37,681 nt of DNA from Deltaproteobacteria bacterium HGW-Deltaproteobacteria-19 (GTDB taxonomy: Bacteria > Desulfobacterota > Syntrophia > Syntrophales > PHBD01). The notes beneath the pieces are model-generated. The model did no database searches, was not told the origin of the DNA, and saw only the letters and a list, made by a program, of their open reading frames with translations. The position numbers and the translations under genes are program-made. Each line of letters opens with the position of its first letter. The first letter of the stretch is position 1. The DNA lies in assembly GCA_002841865.1 (NCBI GenBank), contig PHBD01000029.1, positions 1 to 37,681 of the forward strand, given 5' to 3'. This document shows, piece by piece, positions 1,666 to 28,122 of this stretch.

Positions 1666-1784
1666 TCGGTGGAATGATTGCTTTCACGCGGAAGAAGTGG
1701 TAGTGCAGCGCCTGCTTCTCGGCCTTTTCTTTTCCGATTGAAACCTCTGAGCCCGCGGCTGCGGGATACATGGAGACCTCCCCG

Positions 1785-2762
1785 ATGCTATGCGGATGCT
1801 ACCGGTTCCACGGAACACTCCTGGACGATGCCGTCCTTCCCGAATCCAAGGGATCGATCTTCCGAAACACGTTCGGCCTGGCACTCAGGCACGTCGTCTG
1901 TGCCATGAAACAAAAGGACTGCGCCGGCTGCATCCTTGACCGGCGCTGTCTTTACCCTCTCCTGTTCTTGAGCCCGCCTCCGGCGAATCACCATCTTCTG
2001 CCCCCGTTCCCCAAGGGAAAGATCCGCTCCACGACCATCCCTTCCCCCTTCGTCATCGAACCGCCGGAAACAACCGGGACCTCGTTCCGGCGCGAGGACC
2101 CTTTCGATTTCGGATTAATCCTCTTCGGGAGAAGCAACGAGCACATTCTCCATTTCATCCAGACCTTCGAGGAGATGGGACGGCTGGGAATCGGCCGCCG
2201 AATGGAGAAAGGACGCTCGCGTTTTGTCGTCGCTTCCGTCATGGCAGGCGACGAAATCATCTGGCAAGGCCGCGAGCGCAGTCTCCGGGAAGGCGATTTC
2301 GCCGAAGACCTGCGGGCGGGACTCCTGGCAGATAAGGAAAAGGCATCGTCTTCCCCGGTTTCCGCCATCACTCTGCACCTGGTGTCACCGCTCGTCGGCG
2401 TTGCCGGGCCGAACAGGGAGGAGGCCCTGCCCTTTCCTGTCCTGATGCAGTCTATCCTGGGCCGGATCCTCACGCTCAACAGGACCTACGGGAAAGGACA
2501 GCTGGTCCTCGACGCACCCGGGCTCATCTCCAGGGCAGCCGCCGTCCGGGTCACGGAGTCGAGTCTCCGGCGGAGGGGGGAGGCACGTGCGGACCGCCGG
2601 TCCGATTCATCCGCGCATTCCGGAAAGATTGTCGGCGAAGTGGCTTATGAGGGCCCTCTCGGCGAGTTCCTGCCTTACATTCGTTTTTGCGAGCGGACCC
2701 ACCTGGGCCGAGAGACATCCTGGGGATCGGGGAAGATCCGGGTCCATTCCGTACAGCCCTGA
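1785..2762 (+). CDS. Cas6-like RAMP-fold protein without a CRISPR array
   Basis: The protein is about 325 aa and matches the pattern of the CRISPR-associated Cas6 C-terminal family (PF10040 type). Its N-terminal region has the PESKGSIFRNTFGLALR block and then four cysteines (C39, C46, C49, C55), a likely zinc-binding cluster. Its C-terminus has the glycine-rich RAMP loop HLGRETSWGSGKIRV. Cas6 proteins cleave precursor crRNA, but no repeat-spacer array or other cas gene is in this window, so the target RNA is unknown. I chose ATG 1785 because GGAG (1772-1775) sits 9 nt upstream and homologues start close to the YRF strand; ATG 1770 is the in-frame alternative. It follows mtnA by 119 bp with no terminator visible. 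Family assignment is fairly secure; a role in crRNA maturation is not. Confidence 0.75.
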   Translation: MLCGCYRFHGTLLDDAVLPESKGSIFRNTFGLALRHVVCAMKQKDCAGCILDRRCLYPLLFLSPPPANHHLLPPFPKGKIRSTTIPSPFVIEPPETTGTSFRREDPFDFGLILFGRSNEHILHFIQTFEEMGRLGIGRRMEKGRSRFVVASVMAGDEIIWQGRERSLREGDFAEDLRAGLLADKEKASSSPVSAITLHLVSPLVGVAGPNREEALPFPVLMQSILGRILTLNRTYGKGQLVLDAPGLISRAAAVRVTESSLRRRGEARADRRSDSSAHSGKIVGEVAYEGPLGEFLPYIRFCERTHLGRETSWGSGKIRVHSVQP

Positions 2763-21529: not shown

Positions 21530-23125
21530 ATGATACGAATGATTAGGTATTTTTCATGGGTGATGGTCCTTCTCCTTCCTCTGGCTTCCCTTGCCGCCGA
21601 TGATTCCGGAACAGCCGTCCCCCGCTTCGATATCCGGAATTATCAGGTAGAGGGGAATACGATCCTTCCGCAGGACCGGCTGGAAGCAATCCTGGCCCCC
21701 TTCACCGGCAAGGACCGGGACTTCGGAACCGTTCAGGAGGCGGTGGAGACGCTGGAAAAGGCTTATCGCAGCGGCGGATTCAACATGGTGGCCGTCGTTC
21801 TGCCGGAGCAGGAGATGCAGAACGGCGTCATTCGCCTGAACGTCATCGAGTACCGCATCGGAAAAATCGCAATACAGGGGAACCGGTTTTTTGGTGAGCA
21901 GAACATCCTGAGAAGCCTCCCTGCCTTGCTTCCTGGCAAAACGCCCAATGTCGACGACTTGTCCCGGAGCCTGAAACTGGCGAACGAGAATCCTGCCAAG
22001 AAGACGGATTTAAAATTCAAGAGCGGCGATGCGCAGGATGTGGACGCGACCGTCACCGTGAAGGACGAGAAATCCTGGAGGGCAGGCGTGTCCTTGGATA
22101 ACTCCGGGGACAAACACTCCGGCCGATCGCGCATGGGGTTCCTTCTGCAGCACGCCAACATCGCGAATCTGGATCATGTCCTGACGCTTCAATATATTAC
22201 CTCACCTGAAAACCTGAAAGATGTCAATATCTTCGGTCTCGGATACCACATCCCCCTCTATTCGCTGGGATCCTCCATAGACCTGGTTGCCGCACATTCA
22301 AACGTGGATTCCGGCAATGTAAACGTTTCGTCCTACAACATGGGCATCAGCGGCAAGGGGACCGTACTGGCGCTTCGGTACAACCAGAATCTCACCCGGA
22401 TCGGCGATTACGAGCACAAGCTGATCCTTGGACTGGACTACAAGGCGTTTGAGAATGACGTGGAATTTCTCGGATATCAACTGGGCCACAACATTACGGT
22501 GCATCCCCTGAGTCTTACCTACACCGGGATGCTGGACCGGATAAATTATTCCGCCGGTTTCTACCTGACGGGCGTTCAGAATCTGGCGAGCAGCTGGGAC
22601 GGCCGGGACGGGGAATCCAACTTCGAGAACGCCCGCGCAGGGTCCTCCATGGAATACACGATCCTCCGGTACGGTGCGAATTTCATGCTCATGCCGGGCG
22701 GAGACTGGCGCCTGCGGGCGGTCGTCAACGGGCAATATACTGAAAATGCTCTCGTGGCGGGAGAGCAGTACGGGATCGGGGGAGCGAACACGGTCCGCGG
22801 CTTCCTGGAGCGGGAGTACGCCAACGATTACGGGTATTCCGGGAGCCTCGAAGTATATTCGCCGGATCTGCTTCGACTCGTCGGCGTCTCCGCCCTCCAG
22901 TCGCGCCTGCTGGTTTTTTATGACCGCGGCCAGGTCCGACGCAACAAGCCGCTGGCAGGTGAAACGGTCGGCGTTGAGATGGCGAGCATCGGTCCCGGAC
23001 TGCGCATAACCGACGGCAAGCATTTTTCCATTTCCGTGGATTACGGCATCGTCATCGATCCCCCGGAGGACGGCACGACCCGGTGGAGCGGCATGTGGCA
23101 CCTGTCGGCGAGCTATCTGTTCTGA
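21530..23125 (+). CDS. ShlB/FhaC/HecB family two-partner-secretion transporter (TpsB)
   Basis: This 531-aa outer-membrane transporter would export the TpsA protein encoded next. Seen: a signal peptide (about 1-22, MVLLLPLASLA), POTRA-type segments (FDIRNYQVEGNTILP, then IGKIAIQGNRFFGEQNI), and a C-terminal 16-strand barrel region. The L6 hairpin motif GGANTVRGFLEREY (VRGF about 422-425) is present, and the last residues are ASYLF, ending in the Phe typical of BAM-inserted barrels. GGAG lies 5 nt before ATG 21530. The tpsA ATG is 26 bp after the stop, so the pair is cotranscribed. Base composition is lower in GC than the recA-side genes. Confidence 0.93.
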   Translation: MIRMIRYFSWVMVLLLPLASLAADDSGTAVPRFDIRNYQVEGNTILPQDRLEAILAPFTGKDRDFGTVQEAVETLEKAYRSGGFNMVAVVLPEQEMQNGVIRLNVIEYRIGKIAIQGNRFFGEQNILRSLPALLPGKTPNVDDLSRSLKLANENPAKKTDLKFKSGDAQDVDATVTVKDEKSWRAGVSLDNSGDKHSGRSRMGFLLQHANIANLDHVLTLQYITSPENLKDVNIFGLGYHIPLYSLGSSIDLVAAHSNVDSGNVNVSSYNMGISGKGTVLALRYNQNLTRIGDYEHKLILGLDYKAFENDVEFLGYQLGHNITVHPLSLTYTGMLDRINYSAGFYLTGVQNLASSWDGRDGESNFENARAGSSMEYTILRYGANFMLMPGGDWRLRAVVNGQYTENALVAGEQYGIGGANTVRGFLEREYANDYGYSGSLEVYSPDLLRLVGVSALQSRLLVFYDRGQVRRNKPLAGETVGVEMASIGPGLRITDGKHFSISVDYGIVIDPPEDGTTRWSGMWHLSASYLF

Positions 23126-23151
23126 AGGGTGGATGGGGCAAGGAGTCTGAT

Positions 23152-25935
23152 ATGAAAACGGATCGCTGCAAAAAACGGGGAATTGCCCGGATGGCCGGCA
23201 GCCTTTTTTTCATGGCAATGACGCTTTTCGTGAGTGCGGATACCCTGATGGCGTTCCCCTCCGGGCCGCAGGTTGTAAACGGGCAGGTCGGTTTCTCCTC
23301 GCAGGGAAACACTCTGACGATCACAAACAGCCCGAGCTCGATCATCAACTGGCAGGCGTTTTCCATCGGCGCCGGCGAGGCCGTTCGGTTTGTTCAGCAG
23401 AGCAGCAACAGCGCCGTCCTGAACCGGGTCATCGGACAGAACGCCTCCCTGATCCTGGGCCTCCTGCAGTCCAACGGCACCGTCTTTCTCATCAACCCCA
23501 ACGGCATCCTCATCGGCCCGGGGGCGCGGATCGACGTGAACGGATTCATTGCCTCGACCCTGGGCATCAGCGATCAGGATTTTCTCGCGGGGAAATACAA
23601 CTTCACCGCCGGCGCCACGGCCGCAGGCATTCAGAATCAGGGCACCATTTCGACGCCCGCCGGCGGGAAGGTCTTCCTGATCGCGCCGAATGTTGAAAAC
23701 AGCGGGCTGATCTATTCACCCGAAGGAGACGTCATGCTGGCGGCGGGGCAAAGCGTTCAGATGGTCGACTCCCTCAAATCCGACATCGCCGTTGTCGTGA
23801 GCGCTCCGGCGGACACGGCACTGAACCTGGGACAGATCATCGCGGGGAGCGGCAAGGCCGGGATCTATGGCGGACTGATCGCCCAGAAGGGCCTGGTCAG
23901 CGCGGATAGCGCCACAGTCGGAGAGGGCGGCAGGATTGTTTTCCGAGCCACGAGCGGGATCACCCTGGATGCCGGGAGCGTTACGACCGCCAACGGTGCT
24001 GAGGGCGGGCAGATTGAAATTCAGAGTGAGGACGGAACTACCGTGGTCTCGGGTTCCGTTACGGCGACCGGGACGGACGGCAGGGGCGGTGATATCGCAA
24101 TCCTGGGCGATCATGTCGAACTGACCGGTCAGGCCCTTGTGGACGCCTCGGGTGGAAGCGGCGGCGGCGCCGTCCTGATCGGCGGCGATTACCAGGGCGC
24201 GAACGCGGCCGTCCAGAATGCAAAGACAACCTATATCGGGAGCGACGTCGCCATCCGGGCGGATGCCCTGGAGGCGGGAGACGGCGGCAAGGTGGTGCTC
24301 TGGTCCGACGAGACGACGTCGTTTTACGGTTCCATCAGTGCCCGGGGAGGTGCGAGCGGCGGTGACGGTGGCAGCGTCGAGGTGTCGGGCAAGCAGACGC
24401 TCGTATATAAAGGTCTGACGGATGTCCGGGCTCCGCTGGGAACGACCGGGACACTGCTCCTGGACCCGACCAACTACTTGATTTGGTCCGTCGGCGGCGA
24501 CATCACGGGAGCCGACCTGGGTGCGCAGCTCGAATTGGCGAATGTCACCATTCAGACCGCCACCGGGGGGGTGCAGGTCGGGTACATCGCCGTTGACGAC
24601 GCCGTGACCTGGACCAGCGGGAACAAGCTCACCCTGAGCGCCCATAGCGACATATTGGTGAACAACGTCATCACCAACAGCGGCGGCGGCAGCCTCGTGC
24701 TCAGGGCCGACTCGGACGGCAGCGGCGCGGGGGACGTTCTTTTTGACGGGATCGGCCATGTGAACATGACGGGCGGCGGTCTTGTGTCGATTTTCTACAA
24801 CCCGCCCGCCGGTTACGGCACGCCGACGGACTATACGGCCAAAGTTACCGGCGTCACACCGACAGCCTACATGCTGGTCAACAACGTGACGCAGCTCCAG
24901 GAAATCAATAACAATCTAGCAGGCACCTACGCCCTCGGTACGGACATCGACGCCGCCGCCACGACCGGCTGGAACGCAGGGGCGGGTTTTCTGCCCCTGG
25001 GCGATGACAGCCTGATCGAGGCACAGTCATTCCGGGGAATCTTCGACGGACAGGGCCACACGATCACCGGTCTCTTCATCAACCGGCCCGCGTCGAACTA
25101 CATCGGTCTCTTCGGCGGCTGCACTGCAGCGGCGGTTATCCGGAATGTCGGAATGGAAAACGTGAATATCACCGGCAATTTCCAAGTGGCCGGCCTAGTG
25201 GCGCATACCGGCGGCAGCATCGACAATTGCTATGTGACCGGATCGGTAACGGCAATGGACAATACCGTCGGCGGATTGGTGGCTTTGACCACCGGCAGCG
25301 TCACCAACTCCTACAGCGCCGCCGATGTAACCGGAGTTTCTTATGTCGGAGGGCTGATCGGGTCCGTCTATTATGCGACCGGAACGGTCACCAACAGTTA
25401 CAGTGTCGGCGTCGTGAGCGGTTCCGGGACCAACGTGGGTGGACTGATCGGACACAACGCCGACGCCACCCGCGGCAATGTCACAAGCAGTTACTGGAAC
25501 ACGGACATATATGGAGGGACCAGCGCCGGCGGCACGGGGAAGACCACCGCGGAGATGCAGACCCAGGCGACGTTTGTCGGCTGGGACTTCACGAACACGT
25601 GGGAACTCAGCGCGGGCCTGTACCCGAAGATTGTGGGGCTTGCCAGCGGGACGGCGACGCCGGCGACGCCGACGCCGACTGCCGGCACAACGACAACATC
25701 CTCCGCCACAACCCTGGCCGATGCGGCGGCCGCCGGCAGTATTTCTGCCGCAAGCAATACCGTCACGGCACTCACAATGGTAACGGAAACGGTCGGCTCG
25801 ATGGAGGGACAAGGTGGCGGAGGCGCTTCGGGAGAGGGTGAAGAGAACCGCAAGGAAGGTGATGAACGTGGAGAAGGAACTCAAAAAACCGGCGATGGGG
25901 CAGGGGATAAAAAGGGCGCGGTTTATTGCAATTAG
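23152..25935 (+). CDS. Two-partner-secretion exoprotein (TpsA) with GLUG repeats
   Basis: This is a secreted surface protein of 927 aa. Signal peptide about 1-34, then the filamentous-haemagglutinin N-terminal secretion domain (about 35-150) with NRVIG (91-95) and NPNG (115-118), as recognised by TpsB. A Gly/Asn/Thr-rich beta-helix follows, with GLUG-type repeats at about 679-783. Then come a Thr/Ala/Pro linker and a short charged tail ending in AVYCN, with a single terminal-region cysteine. It is small for an adhesin of this type. AGGAG lies 6 nt before ATG 23152; the frame is open further upstream but overlaps tpsB there. The last 74 nt overlap the fecR-like gene in another frame. Confidence 0.92.
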   Translation: MKTDRCKKRGIARMAGSLFFMAMTLFVSADTLMAFPSGPQVVNGQVGFSSQGNTLTITNSPSSIINWQAFSIGAGEAVRFVQQSSNSAVLNRVIGQNASLILGLLQSNGTVFLINPNGILIGPGARIDVNGFIASTLGISDQDFLAGKYNFTAGATAAGIQNQGTISTPAGGKVFLIAPNVENSGLIYSPEGDVMLAAGQSVQMVDSLKSDIAVVVSAPADTALNLGQIIAGSGKAGIYGGLIAQKGLVSADSATVGEGGRIVFRATSGITLDAGSVTTANGAEGGQIEIQSEDGTTVVSGSVTATGTDGRGGDIAILGDHVELTGQALVDASGGSGGGAVLIGGDYQGANAAVQNAKTTYIGSDVAIRADALEAGDGGKVVLWSDETTSFYGSISARGGASGGDGGSVEVSGKQTLVYKGLTDVRAPLGTTGTLLLDPTNYLIWSVGGDITGADLGAQLELANVTIQTATGGVQVGYIAVDDAVTWTSGNKLTLSAHSDILVNNVITNSGGGSLVLRADSDGSGAGDVLFDGIGHVNMTGGGLVSIFYNPPAGYGTPTDYTAKVTGVTPTAYMLVNNVTQLQEINNNLAGTYALGTDIDAAATTGWNAGAGFLPLGDDSLIEAQSFRGIFDGQGHTITGLFINRPASNYIGLFGGCTAAAVIRNVGMENVNITGNFQVAGLVAHTGGSIDNCYVTGSVTAMDNTVGGLVALTTGSVTNSYSAADVTGVSYVGGLIGSVYYATGTVTNSYSVGVVSGSGTNVGGLIGHNADATRGNVTSSYWNTDIYGGTSAGGTGKTTAEMQTQATFVGWDFTNTWELSAGLYPKIVGLASGTATPATPTPTAGTTTTSSATTLADAAAAGSISAASNTVTALTMVTETVGSMEGQGGGGASGEGEENRKEGDERGEGTQKTGDGAGDKKGAVYCN
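25186..25500 (+). repeat. GLUG-type tandem protein repeats in tpsA
   Basis: Within tpsA the translated stretch shows four related units that start with VAGLVAH, VGGLVAL, VGGLIGS and VGGLIGH and contain (S/V)(T/D)N(S/C)Y repeats. The pattern is that of the GLUG motif found in bacterial surface beta-helices. The DNA copies are diverged, so this is a protein-level repeat. Confidence 0.8.
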
Positions 25936-26614
25936 CCTGATTGCACTGTCCTTTGTCCTGCTTCCGTGCACGGCTTCCTTTGCCGGCGAGAAGGCGGGGA
26001 CGGTGACGCACCTGAGCGGCCCCCTGTTCGCAAAAAAGGTGGACGGGAAAACCTGGTCCCTGTCGGTCCATTCGATCGTCGAACAGGGGGATACCCTGGT
26101 GACCGGGAAAAAGACCCATGCCCGGATCCGCTTTCTCGACAATGCCGAGATTACGCTCCGTCCCAATAGCCAGATGAAGATTTCGCGATTCTACTTCGAA
26201 CAGGCCGCGCCGCAAAAAGACGCCGCCTTTTTCGATTTGGTCAAGGGAGGAGCCCGCTCTGTCGTGGGTTTGATCGGCCGGAGAGGCAGCCAGAACAGTT
26301 ACCGGATGGTGACGGAAAATGCCACGGCCGGGGTGAGAGGCACGATTTACGATTGCCGGGTCTGCAAGGGAGACTGTGGATCGATTCCGGACGGAACCTA
26401 TTTCTTTGTCGTCGAGGGAACGATTGCCGTCAGCAACGAAGCGGGCTCGAAGGACGTCGGTGCCGGTCAGTATGCATATGTGCGGAATGCCGAAACGCCG
26501 CCGGTGATTCTGCCTGAAAACCCGGGCCTTGATTTCTCTCTTCCCTCTTCCATCGGAGGACCGGCGGGAAGCGGTGACCCAGGGAGCGTGGGGGGCGGCT
26601 GCACGGTGCGCTGA
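25862..26614 (+). CDS. Exported FecR-domain protein
   Basis: This is a 250-aa exported protein. The N-terminal signal peptide (about 18-41, FIAISLIALSFVLLPCTASFA) is followed by a FecR domain (GKTWSLSVHSIVEQGDTLVTG, ARIRFLDNAEITLRPNSQMKI, then ATAGVRGTIYDC). A cysteine cluster C-x2-C-x3-C (CRVCKGDC) lies in the domain, and the C-terminus is glycine-rich with a last cysteine (GGGCTVR). It lacks the anti-sigma membrane segment of classical FecR, so it is more likely periplasmic or surface-attached, perhaps assisting TpsA. The start ATG 25862 with AAGGA upstream lies 74 nt inside tpsA; the frame is open upstream but only within tpsA. Confidence 0.88.
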   Translation: MNVEKELKKPAMGQGIKRARFIAISLIALSFVLLPCTASFAGEKAGTVTHLSGPLFAKKVDGKTWSLSVHSIVEQGDTLVTGKKTHARIRFLDNAEITLRPNSQMKISRFYFEQAAPQKDAAFFDLVKGGARSVVGLIGRRGSQNSYRMVTENATAGVRGTIYDCRVCKGDCGSIPDGTYFFVVEGTIAVSNEAGSKDVGAGQYAYVRNAETPPVILPENPGLDFSLPSSIGGPAGSGDPGSVGGGCTVR

Positions 26615-26744
26615 CCGGAACCGGGGTCTTTCAATTTCTCCGGATGCGGTCATCGGGTTCCATGAACTTCTCCGGGAACTATACGACCAATGCGCGGCGA
26701 TGAAGATATGATGCCACGCAGAGAGCGAAGCGCGGGAACGAGGG

Positions 26745-26773
26745 GGCCAACCGGAAGGTTGGTCTTTTTTTTT
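26745..26773 (+). terminator. Rho-independent terminator after the tps-fecR operon
   Basis: GGCCAACC-GGAA-GGTTGGTC is followed by nine T. It ends the tpsB-tpsA-fecR transcript. A 27-bp stretch covering it (26738-26764) recurs with two changes at 28087-28113, after the cyclase-like gene. Confidence 0.85.
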
Positions 26774-26845
26774 ACTGTAGTGCCATATGCTTATAATGTC
26801 TCAATATTTCCAGGTAGTTAAAAAAGATTATGCCATTTATGTAAT

Positions 26846-26874
26846 ATTGACAATGTGAATGGCGTTTCGTAATC
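26846..26874 (+). promoter_or_regulatory. Candidate promoter for the cyclase-like gene
   Basis: TTGACA at 26846-26851 and TAATCT at 26869-26874 are 17 bp apart. The transcript would begin near 26881, so the 26908-26930 hairpin would lie in its leader. Confidence 0.4.
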
Positions 26875-26907
26875 TGAATACAAATCATCCTGCCATGTAT
26901 TTAGTAG

Positions 26908-26930
26908 GTCAAGAAGGGGTCCTTCTTGAC
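26908..26930 (+). promoter_or_regulatory. Perfect 10-bp hairpin in the cyclase gene leader
   Basis: GTCAAGAAGG-GGT-CCTTCTTGAC, followed by TGACCC and not by a T run. It could be an operator or an RNA control element. It ends 50 bp before the ATG. Confidence 0.6.
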
Positions 26931-26980
26931 TGACCCTTGGACTTTATGGGCCAGCCCCAACGAAGCGAAAGGATCTCTCC

Positions 26981-27985
26981 ATGACAGCCTTGCTATCGCC
27001 GTCTTACCTTCTGAGCTTTTCAATGTCTGTCACATCACGGGTTGCCGGTTGGGGAATGCTCATCATCCTTGTTCTCGTCGCCTTCTCCATGGCCTCTCCC
27101 TATGTGAAAGTCGGAAAAGAGCAGGAACGCTATGTCAAAGCCGTTTTATCCTTTGAACAAAAGATCACCAAGCCAGTCCGCACAACCCTTCCTATCAAGA
27201 TCGACGGCCACGATGTGACAGGCTGGATCATTCTCGTCGGCACGCTCGGTCTCAGCCTCTGGTTCAACGGCCTGTCCTACCGCTTTCAGAATCAAGCGGA
27301 ATACCTTCAATACAAGCGGAGCATGGAGGAGATACAGAAGCAGAAACACGTCTCCGAATTCGCAATACAATCTTCTTCAATCGGCGAGAAACTGGATCAG
27401 CTCAAGACAGCAACGAAAAAAGACCGGGAACAGATCATCCGGGAGTTTGCTGAGACGAAGCGCAAGCTCGATGAAATGGGCCGGGACCTTGCGTTTCTGG
27501 CCATTGACATCGTCGATTCGACGGGCATGAAGGTGGACGAGGAGAAGGCCGTCGTTCAGCACGATTTCATGCAATACAGGAATTTCGTCAGCCAGATCCT
27601 GGCCGATCACGAGTGCCTGAAGTCAACCTGGACGCCTGACGGTGTCATGACCTGCTTCCCGACGGTTGACGGAGCCGTTCAGACCGCAACAGCCGTGATC
27701 GGCGGCCTGGAGGAATTCAACCGGGACGTCAAGCAGATGAAGCGTGATTTTATGGTCCGTTGTGGTGTAAACGCGGGCTTCGTCATTTTCGATGAGTCTA
27801 TGCCGCTGGAGATGATCAGTGACCGTGCCATCGATATCGCCGGTCACATGCAGAAGTATGCCGAACCCAACACGGTGAATATTGCAAAACCCGCCATTGA
27901 GCCGCTCATGGAGCGTGGAGGCTTCTCAGCGTCGGGTAAGGTGGTCGACGGCTACGAAGTTTATGCATGGAAAAAGGCTAGCTGA
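26981..27985 (+). CDS. Membrane protein with degenerate class III adenylate/guanylate cyclase domain
   Basis: The protein is 334 aa with two N-terminal hydrophobic segments (about 21-40 and 80-98), a coiled coil (about 105-168), and a cytoplasmic cyclase-homology domain (about 169-330). The metal-binding Asp residues appear kept: D176 in LAIDIVDST and D220 in TPDGVMTCF. RCGVNAG (260-266) matches the RxGxxxG strand. The usual VNxAxRL pair is IDIAGHM, so the transition-state Asn and Arg are D285 and H289. This suggests weak or no cyclase activity, perhaps a sensory or regulatory role. AAAGGA lies 7 nt before ATG 26981. CHASE2/FecR/cyclase genes often neighbour TPS genes in related bacteria; here the CHASE2 domain is absent. 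Confidence 0.82.
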   Translation: MTALLSPSYLLSFSMSVTSRVAGWGMLIILVLVAFSMASPYVKVGKEQERYVKAVLSFEQKITKPVRTTLPIKIDGHDVTGWIILVGTLGLSLWFNGLSYRFQNQAEYLQYKRSMEEIQKQKHVSEFAIQSSSIGEKLDQLKTATKKDREQIIREFAETKRKLDEMGRDLAFLAIDIVDSTGMKVDEEKAVVQHDFMQYRNFVSQILADHECLKSTWTPDGVMTCFPTVDGAVQTATAVIGGLEEFNRDVKQMKRDFMVRCGVNAGFVIFDESMPLEMISDRAIDIAGHMQKYAEPNTVNIAKPAIEPLMERGGFSASGKVVDGYEVYAWKKAS

Positions 27986-28090
27986 TCAGGCCCAACCATG
28001 TATTCCAAAGCATGAGGGCAATGCTGCCTGTAACGAAGAGGTGTCCTGCGGTCTTCCCGCCTGAAGGTTGTGGGGATAAAATTGTGACGA

Positions 28091-28122
28091 GGGGGCCAGC
28101 CGAAAGGTTGGTCCTCTTTTTT
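28091..28122 (+). terminator. Rho-independent terminator after the cyclase-like gene
   Basis: GGCCAGCC-GAAA-GGTTGGTC, extended by GGG/CTC pairing, ends in six T. It is nearly a copy of the hairpin at 26745-26773. The gap 27986-28090 before it holds no gene. Confidence 0.85.

Follow-up and report, generated by a model that had tools for sequence, protein, structure and literature searches.

What does a FecR-domain protein do in a two-partner secretion (TPS) operon, and does the cyclase-like gene next to it belong to the same unit? The question is raised by four adjacent genes on a 37,681-nucleotide stretch of DNA, hereafter the window, which is one contig (C77) of the 3.98-Mb genome of Deltaproteobacteria bacterium HGW-Deltaproteobacteria-19 (G000). 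A first-pass annotation had read these genes as a possible surface-signalling module, in which the FecR-like protein would sense or anchor the exported TpsA and a membrane cyclase-like protein would carry a signal inward. The FecR domain is best known from anti-sigma regulators.

Results

The tpsB-tpsA-fecR operon

The TPS pair lies where the first-pass annotation had placed it. Pfam searches matched TpsB to POTRA_2 (PF08479, 1.2e-16) and ShlB (PF03865, 7.5e-24), and TpsA, whose gene adjoins tpsB at a spacing of 26 nt, was matched to the TPS domain (PF05860, 1.3e-31; TIGR01901, 1.3e-23) and to GLUG (Table 1). The window TpsB contains no cysteines. The tail of TpsA is hydrophilic and ends in VYCN. 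The ATG at 23152 is more likely to be the tpsA start than the GTG at 23083, as it aligns with the start in a congener (G001). Against the congener, dN/dS was 0.17 for tpsB and 0.19 for tpsA.

The third gene also agrees with the annotation's description of an exported FecR-domain protein overlapping the 3' end of tpsA. FecR (PF04773, 7.9e-9; 36.6 bits against a cut-off of 24) is the sole Pfam domain in the protein, the N-terminus is a hydrophobic Sec signal peptide, and a second membrane segment is absent from the hydropathy profile. The most likely fecR start is the ATG at 25895, the only one kept in the congener, which gives a spacing of -41 nt between tpsA and fecR. The congener and G262, a distant member of the phylum, both keep this start and an overlap with tpsA. 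The cyclase-like gene begins 366 nt beyond fecR, with a hairpin between.

Escherichia coli FecR itself reaches the cytoplasm. With a signal peptide and no further membrane segment, the window FecR cannot do so by itself, and neither the cytoplasmic sigma-binding part nor the transmembrane helix of anti-sigma regulators was found in it by Pfam or hydropathy. A role as a canonical anti-sigma factor was ruled out by the lack of a cytoplasmic part.

Elsewhere in the window, positions 1770-2759 (+) encode a stand-alone Cas6-like protein (PF10040, E 1.6e-8), located between an IF-2B-family gene and rmuC.

Table 1. Positions and features of the tpsB-tpsA-fecR locus and of the adjacent cyclase-like gene in the window
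Feature	Position	Strand	Description	Basis
tpsB	21530..23125	+	Outer-membrane ShlB/FhaC-type transporter, 531 aa	Pfam POTRA_2 and ShlB
tpsA	23152..25935	+	Secreted TPS-domain protein with GLUG motif, 927 aa	Pfam
fecR	25895..26614	+	Exported FecR-domain protein, 239 aa	Pfam FecR, hydropathy, conserved start
tpsA/fecR overlap	25895..25935	+	41 nt; also 41 nt in G001 and 32 nt in G262	
TpsA C-terminal Y-C-N codons	25924..25932	+	Common to 6/6 TpsAs of fecR-bearing loci	
FecR C-terminal C-T-V-R codons	26600..26611	+	C-x-V-R end of all FecRs of these operons	
Terminator-like hairpin	26740..26769	+	Upstream copy of the direct repeat flanking the cyclase-like gene	
Cyclase-like gene	26981..27985	+	N-terminal membrane segment, class III cyclase fold at residues 165-334; judged outside the tps-fecR unit	
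Terminator-like hairpin of cyclase-like gene	28089..28118	+	Downstream repeat copy	

Recurrence of the three-gene unit

The congener carries tpsB-tpsA-fecR with amino acid identities of 85, 84 and 77%, respectively, but at another locus (C11) that has different flanking genes and no cyclase gene. In the distant member of the phylum, G262, the gene order is CHASE2 cyclase, tpsB, tpsA, fecR and a second tpsA; its FecR is 44-47% identical, and fecR overlaps tpsA by 32 nt. The upstream cyclase of G262 is a canonical CHASE2 cyclase of a family other than that of the window's cyclase-like protein. When about 56 further TPS places across 40 genomes of the phylum were surveyed, this was the one cluster found to have a FecR at a distance of no more than 10 kb.

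Plasmids were searched too, using FecR as the sole query, and three records were retrieved, two from Variovorax and one from Methyloprofundus. The two Variovorax plasmids are annotated ShlB - FHA - FecR and, having been retrieved by the FecR query alone, were not selected for TPS. Their tps-linked FecR is split into two open reading frames (L112:11908-12728 and L114:11908-12728), each with a signal peptide, and the C-terminal piece keeps a DCEVR end. On the Methyloprofundus plasmid (L113:230-4344), fecR precedes an overlapping gene for a CHASE2 cyclase, a divergent CRP gene is present, and an adjacent TPS is absent. No FecR relatives were found in viral contigs, and a search of the available papers found none joining FecR, TPS and CHASE2.

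The occurrences in the congener, G262 and Variovorax indicate that the operon is real: it recurs in three lineages, yet it is uncommon. We are highly confident that tpsB-tpsA-fecR is a genuine three-gene unit, and its FecR is probably a dedicated periplasmic partner of TpsA.

A membrane protein with a class III cyclase fold

The cyclase-like protein had no Pfam match at 1e-3, and phmmer matched it to the class III cyclase 3mr7 (E 0.002). An AlphaFold2 model built from 13 homologues had a mean pLDDT of 80, exceeding 90 in most of residues 171-260, and aligned with class III cyclases over residues 165-334 by Foldseek (E about 1e-9) and 166-333 by VIA-align (Z about 22). A weak match to PF00211 occurred in 8 of the 13 family members, and a CHASE2 match in none of them. 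The metal-binding aspartates D176 and D220 are invariant in the family. The transition-state Asn/Arg pair is lost, being Asp285/His289 in the 3mr7 alignment and Ala/Gln in the hhalign register, and the base-specifying Lys position is occupied by Thr or Ala. Fold, domain search and alignment thus bear out a class III cyclase-like membrane protein that lacks CHASE2 and has substituted catalytic residues, as first annotated. These substitutions are family-wide and so do not reflect decay of the window copy. A decayed pseudogene was ruled out, the gene being intact, its family conserved across phyla and dN/dS 0.31 against the paralogue on contig C46; assignment to DUF2652 was rejected for want of a match.

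Two paralogues occur in the same genome. The C46 copy is 56% identical, intact and syntenic with the sole copy in the congener; a CRP gene lies at a distance of about 3 kb from it. The C35 copy is 86% identical over its C-terminal half and has an internal deletion; a phylogenetic tree groups it with the window copy (90/90). The C35 copy (L015:8000-8660) has lost its start; an apparent tRNA-Leu, identified by eye, lies on one side of it, and on the other is a hairpin with homology to the terminators in the window.

Outside the genus, relatives of the cyclase-like gene were found in Rhodopseudomonas, Reyranella, Bradyrhizobium, Nitrospirae, Legionellales and Elusimicrobia, and none were found on plasmids. 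No TpsB, TpsA or FecR relative was detected by tblastn in the outside loci (up to 20 kb each, 12 genomes), and a TPS-domain protein was absent from 10 of the 12 genomes altogether. In a Nitrospirae MAG (L046:2012-6797), the family member is clustered with a CHASE2 cyclase, a class II cAMP phosphodiesterase and a CRP regulator. A Legionellales MAG (L049:27-3134) has the gene 4 nt 5' of one for a SulP transporter that carries STAS and cNMP-binding domains. The neighbours in four alphaproteobacterial loci (L044, L045, L047 and L048; about 6.8-13.7 kb; Reyranella and Bradyrhizobium) are polysaccharide genes, namely glycosyltransferase, sugar transferase and UDP-GlcNAc 2-epimerase. Our best guess is that the family has a putative role in cyclic-nucleotide signalling that is independent of tps-fecR.

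A hairpin repeat that flanks the cyclase-like gene

A 36-bp direct repeat with a GNRA-type loop brackets the cyclase-like gene, its copies at 26738-26773 and 28087-28122 being 89% identical (E 2.8e-10). Across the whole genome, the motif occurs elsewhere only after the broken C35 copy, apart from one weak match, and in the congener it does not follow fecR. Flanking the cyclase-like gene, following its C35 copy and missing from the congener operon, the repeat belongs with the cyclase unit. The annotation had the first three genes ending at one terminator: a hairpin does follow fecR, but as a repeat copy that travels with the cyclase gene rather than with the tps operon. We infer that the cyclase-like gene and its terminator form a unit that came to adjoin the operon. 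When the window flanks were traced in the congener by DNA, only tps-fecR, the cyclase, a tRNA and two short matches were recovered, too few to define an empty site.

Paired C-terminal cysteine motifs

TpsAs of fecR-bearing loci share a C-terminal [YF]CN in all six cases, spanning three lineages: GAVYCN in the window, GTTFCN in the congener, KKNYCN and KNNYCN in G262, and KKMYCN in both Variovorax plasmids. The second TpsA of G262 (TpsA2) has the motif even though fecR is not directly 3' of its gene. As a control, 51 TPS places with no fecR beside them were collected, of which 38 had a complete TpsA C-terminus; none of the 38 ends in CN or has a cysteine in the last six residues. A CN end was likewise absent from four more plasmid TpsAs, one of which has a cysteine at -5, and the motif was absent from TpsAs lacking fecR within the same genomes (C25 in our genome; C1:43821 in G262). 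Fisher's test at the level of the three lineages gave p about 9e-5 for [YF]CN against fecR, a value that describes association and is not proof of independence, since the lineages share ancestry.

The partner FecRs carry a matching end (CTVR, CTVR, CIVR, CEVR and CEVR), and C-x-V-R was found in none of nine other complete FecRs. The YCN codons vary between TAT TGC AAT TAG and TAC TGC AAC TGA, and the motif is kept where the fecR start does not overlap (Variovorax and TpsA2 of G262). The differing codons, and the motif's presence without an overlapping fecR frame, indicate that the protein sequence is conserved and point to selection at the protein level; on the same grounds we rejected the idea that YCN arises from the overlapping frame. 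The window FecR has an internal cysteine pair (157/161), kept in G262, plus its lone terminal cysteine. The window TpsA has a single cysteine in its tail, the remaining ones lying at least 230 residues upstream, and an HMW1/HxuA-type pair of C-terminal cysteines, capable of a disulfide loop, is not present.

Model of the FecR protein

The FecR domain was modelled with a pLDDT of 86-91 over residues 31-80, whereas the C-terminal third was of low confidence and the C-terminus disordered. The top PDB match was 5ix9, described as 'Cell surface anchoring domain' (probability 1.00, rmsd 0.9 over 63 residues), at a marginal E of 1e-3. The window FecR scored 28.2 bits against the retention_LapA model, under the cut-off of 50. 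FecRs unlinked to TPS reach scores close to this, so the likeness may reflect the general FecR fold, and LapA-module similarity was dropped as specific evidence.

Discussion

Anchoring of TpsA by FecR, one half of the first-pass proposal, is plausible given the terminal cysteines and the match to an anchoring-domain fold; relay of a signal inward through the cyclase-like neighbour did not hold up. In HMW1 and HxuA, a C-terminal disulfide loop keeps the TpsA end periplasmic and locked to its TpsB (PMC5422565, PMC8151025). The HMW1A/HMW1B and HxuA/HxuB systems resemble the window operon in that TpsB exports TpsA and the cysteine-bearing TpsA C-terminus is expected to be periplasmic (PMC5422565). 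They differ in that the window TpsA has one terminal cysteine within YCN in place of an intramolecular loop, and is accompanied by an extra FecR-domain protein with a terminal cysteine of its own.

We propose that TpsB carries TpsA across the outer membrane with the TpsA N-terminus leading, and that the last residues of TpsA would remain in the periplasm. There, the lone TpsA cysteine at -2 ([YF]CN-COOH) could pair with the lone terminal cysteine of the exported FecR (C-x-V-R-COOH). The folded FecR domain would then be a plug holding TpsA on the cell and would correspond, in trans, to the HMW1/HxuA C-terminal disulfide anchor. In G262, where a CHASE2 cyclase is in the operon, the FecR-TpsA link could also pass a signal inward.

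A tpsB-tpsA-fecR operon with FecR as a disulfide plug for TpsA, beside an independent cyclase-like gene, is the reading we adopt, tentatively and at slightly under even confidence. We infer both the TpsA-FecR bond and the plug function from sequence, and regard them as possible rather than probable. Somewhat more doubtful is the general form of the proposal, in which FecR is a third TPS partner, a covalent and removable periplasmic plug acting through paired cysteine motifs, and a sensor where a CHASE2 cyclase is present. The motif pair was seen in only three lineages, and so could have been inherited with the operon for some other reason. The rarity of fecR beside tps genes in the phylum also counts against this reading.

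The four-gene module of the first-pass annotation, in which the cyclase-like protein would relay a TpsA/FecR signal inward in this strain, is very improbable. The genes are indeed adjacent and on the same strand in this genome, and a TPS-FecR locus with a CHASE2 cyclase provides a precedent, the CHASE2 cyclase having perhaps been functionally replaced here. Nevertheless, 366 bp and a terminator-like hairpin separate fecR from the cyclase-like gene, which forms a repeat-flanked unit of its own, and the congener operon does without it. The gene-order comparison proposed in the annotation was carried out: outside the window, no relative of the cyclase-like gene adjoins tps-fecR, and most host genomes (10/12) have no TPS at all. 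The module was therefore rejected by gene order in the congener and in the 12 outside loci, and it is very likely that the cyclase-like gene is not part of the tps-fecR unit.

Two further explanations concern FecR itself. It might be a periplasmic sensor of TpsA export or binding, signalling to an inner-membrane cyclase, canonically of the CHASE2 type, encoded nearby or elsewhere (here perhaps on C48). A CHASE2 cyclase gene lies directly 5' of tpsB-tpsA-fecR in G262, and FecR adjoins such a cyclase on C48 of our genome and, beside CRP, on the Methyloprofundus plasmid. We nonetheless consider a sensor unlikely: no CHASE2 cyclase is near the operon in our genome, the congener or Variovorax, the C48 FecR lacks C-x-V-R, and the window FecR has no cytoplasmic domain through which a signal could be relayed. 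Slightly less likely again is that FecR acts in the periplasm as a chaperone of TpsA or in its quality control, with the terminal cysteines engaged in a short-lived mixed disulfide or in a dimer. The terminal cysteines are compatible with a mixed disulfide, and stoichiometric synthesis is suggested by the export signal, the translational overlap and the constant place of fecR behind tpsA; yet most TpsAs, many of them larger, manage without a FecR, and the fold match is to an anchoring domain, not a chaperone.

Several known systems share parts of this arrangement. FecR/PupR anti-sigma regulators, including the TPS-regulating PUMA3/VreR (PMC2729926), have in common with the window FecR an extracytoplasmic PF04773 domain and a link to outer-membrane traffic, whereas the window protein is exported by a signal peptide and lacks the cytoplasmic anti-sigma part. 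The N-terminal retention module of LapA-type RTX adhesins (5ix9) shares a beta-rich fold and the idea of outer-membrane retention; the window FecR, in contrast, is a separate polypeptide serving a TPS protein rather than the N-terminal domain of an RTX adhesin, and its score is below the cut-off. With CHASE2-cyclase/FecR modules, the cyclase-FecR-TPS neighbourhood is shared in G262, but the window's cyclase-like protein lacks CHASE2 and belongs to another family. The uncharacterised cyclase-like DUF2652 proteins (PMC4886424) likewise have a class III fold that is divergent and catalytic residues that are substituted; the window protein differs in being membrane-anchored and in its residue pattern.

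Conclusions

The cyclase-like protein represents a family of membrane proteins with a cyclase fold that is undescribed and patchy in distribution; its members retain both metal aspartates, have other residues in place of the Asn/Arg pair throughout, and in two loci lie beside cyclic-nucleotide genes. For TpsAs that lack an anchor of their own, a third gene that recurs, and whose product has a terminal cysteine to match, offers a simple hypothesis of surface retention, and the proposal would tie the FecR domain to adhesin retention.
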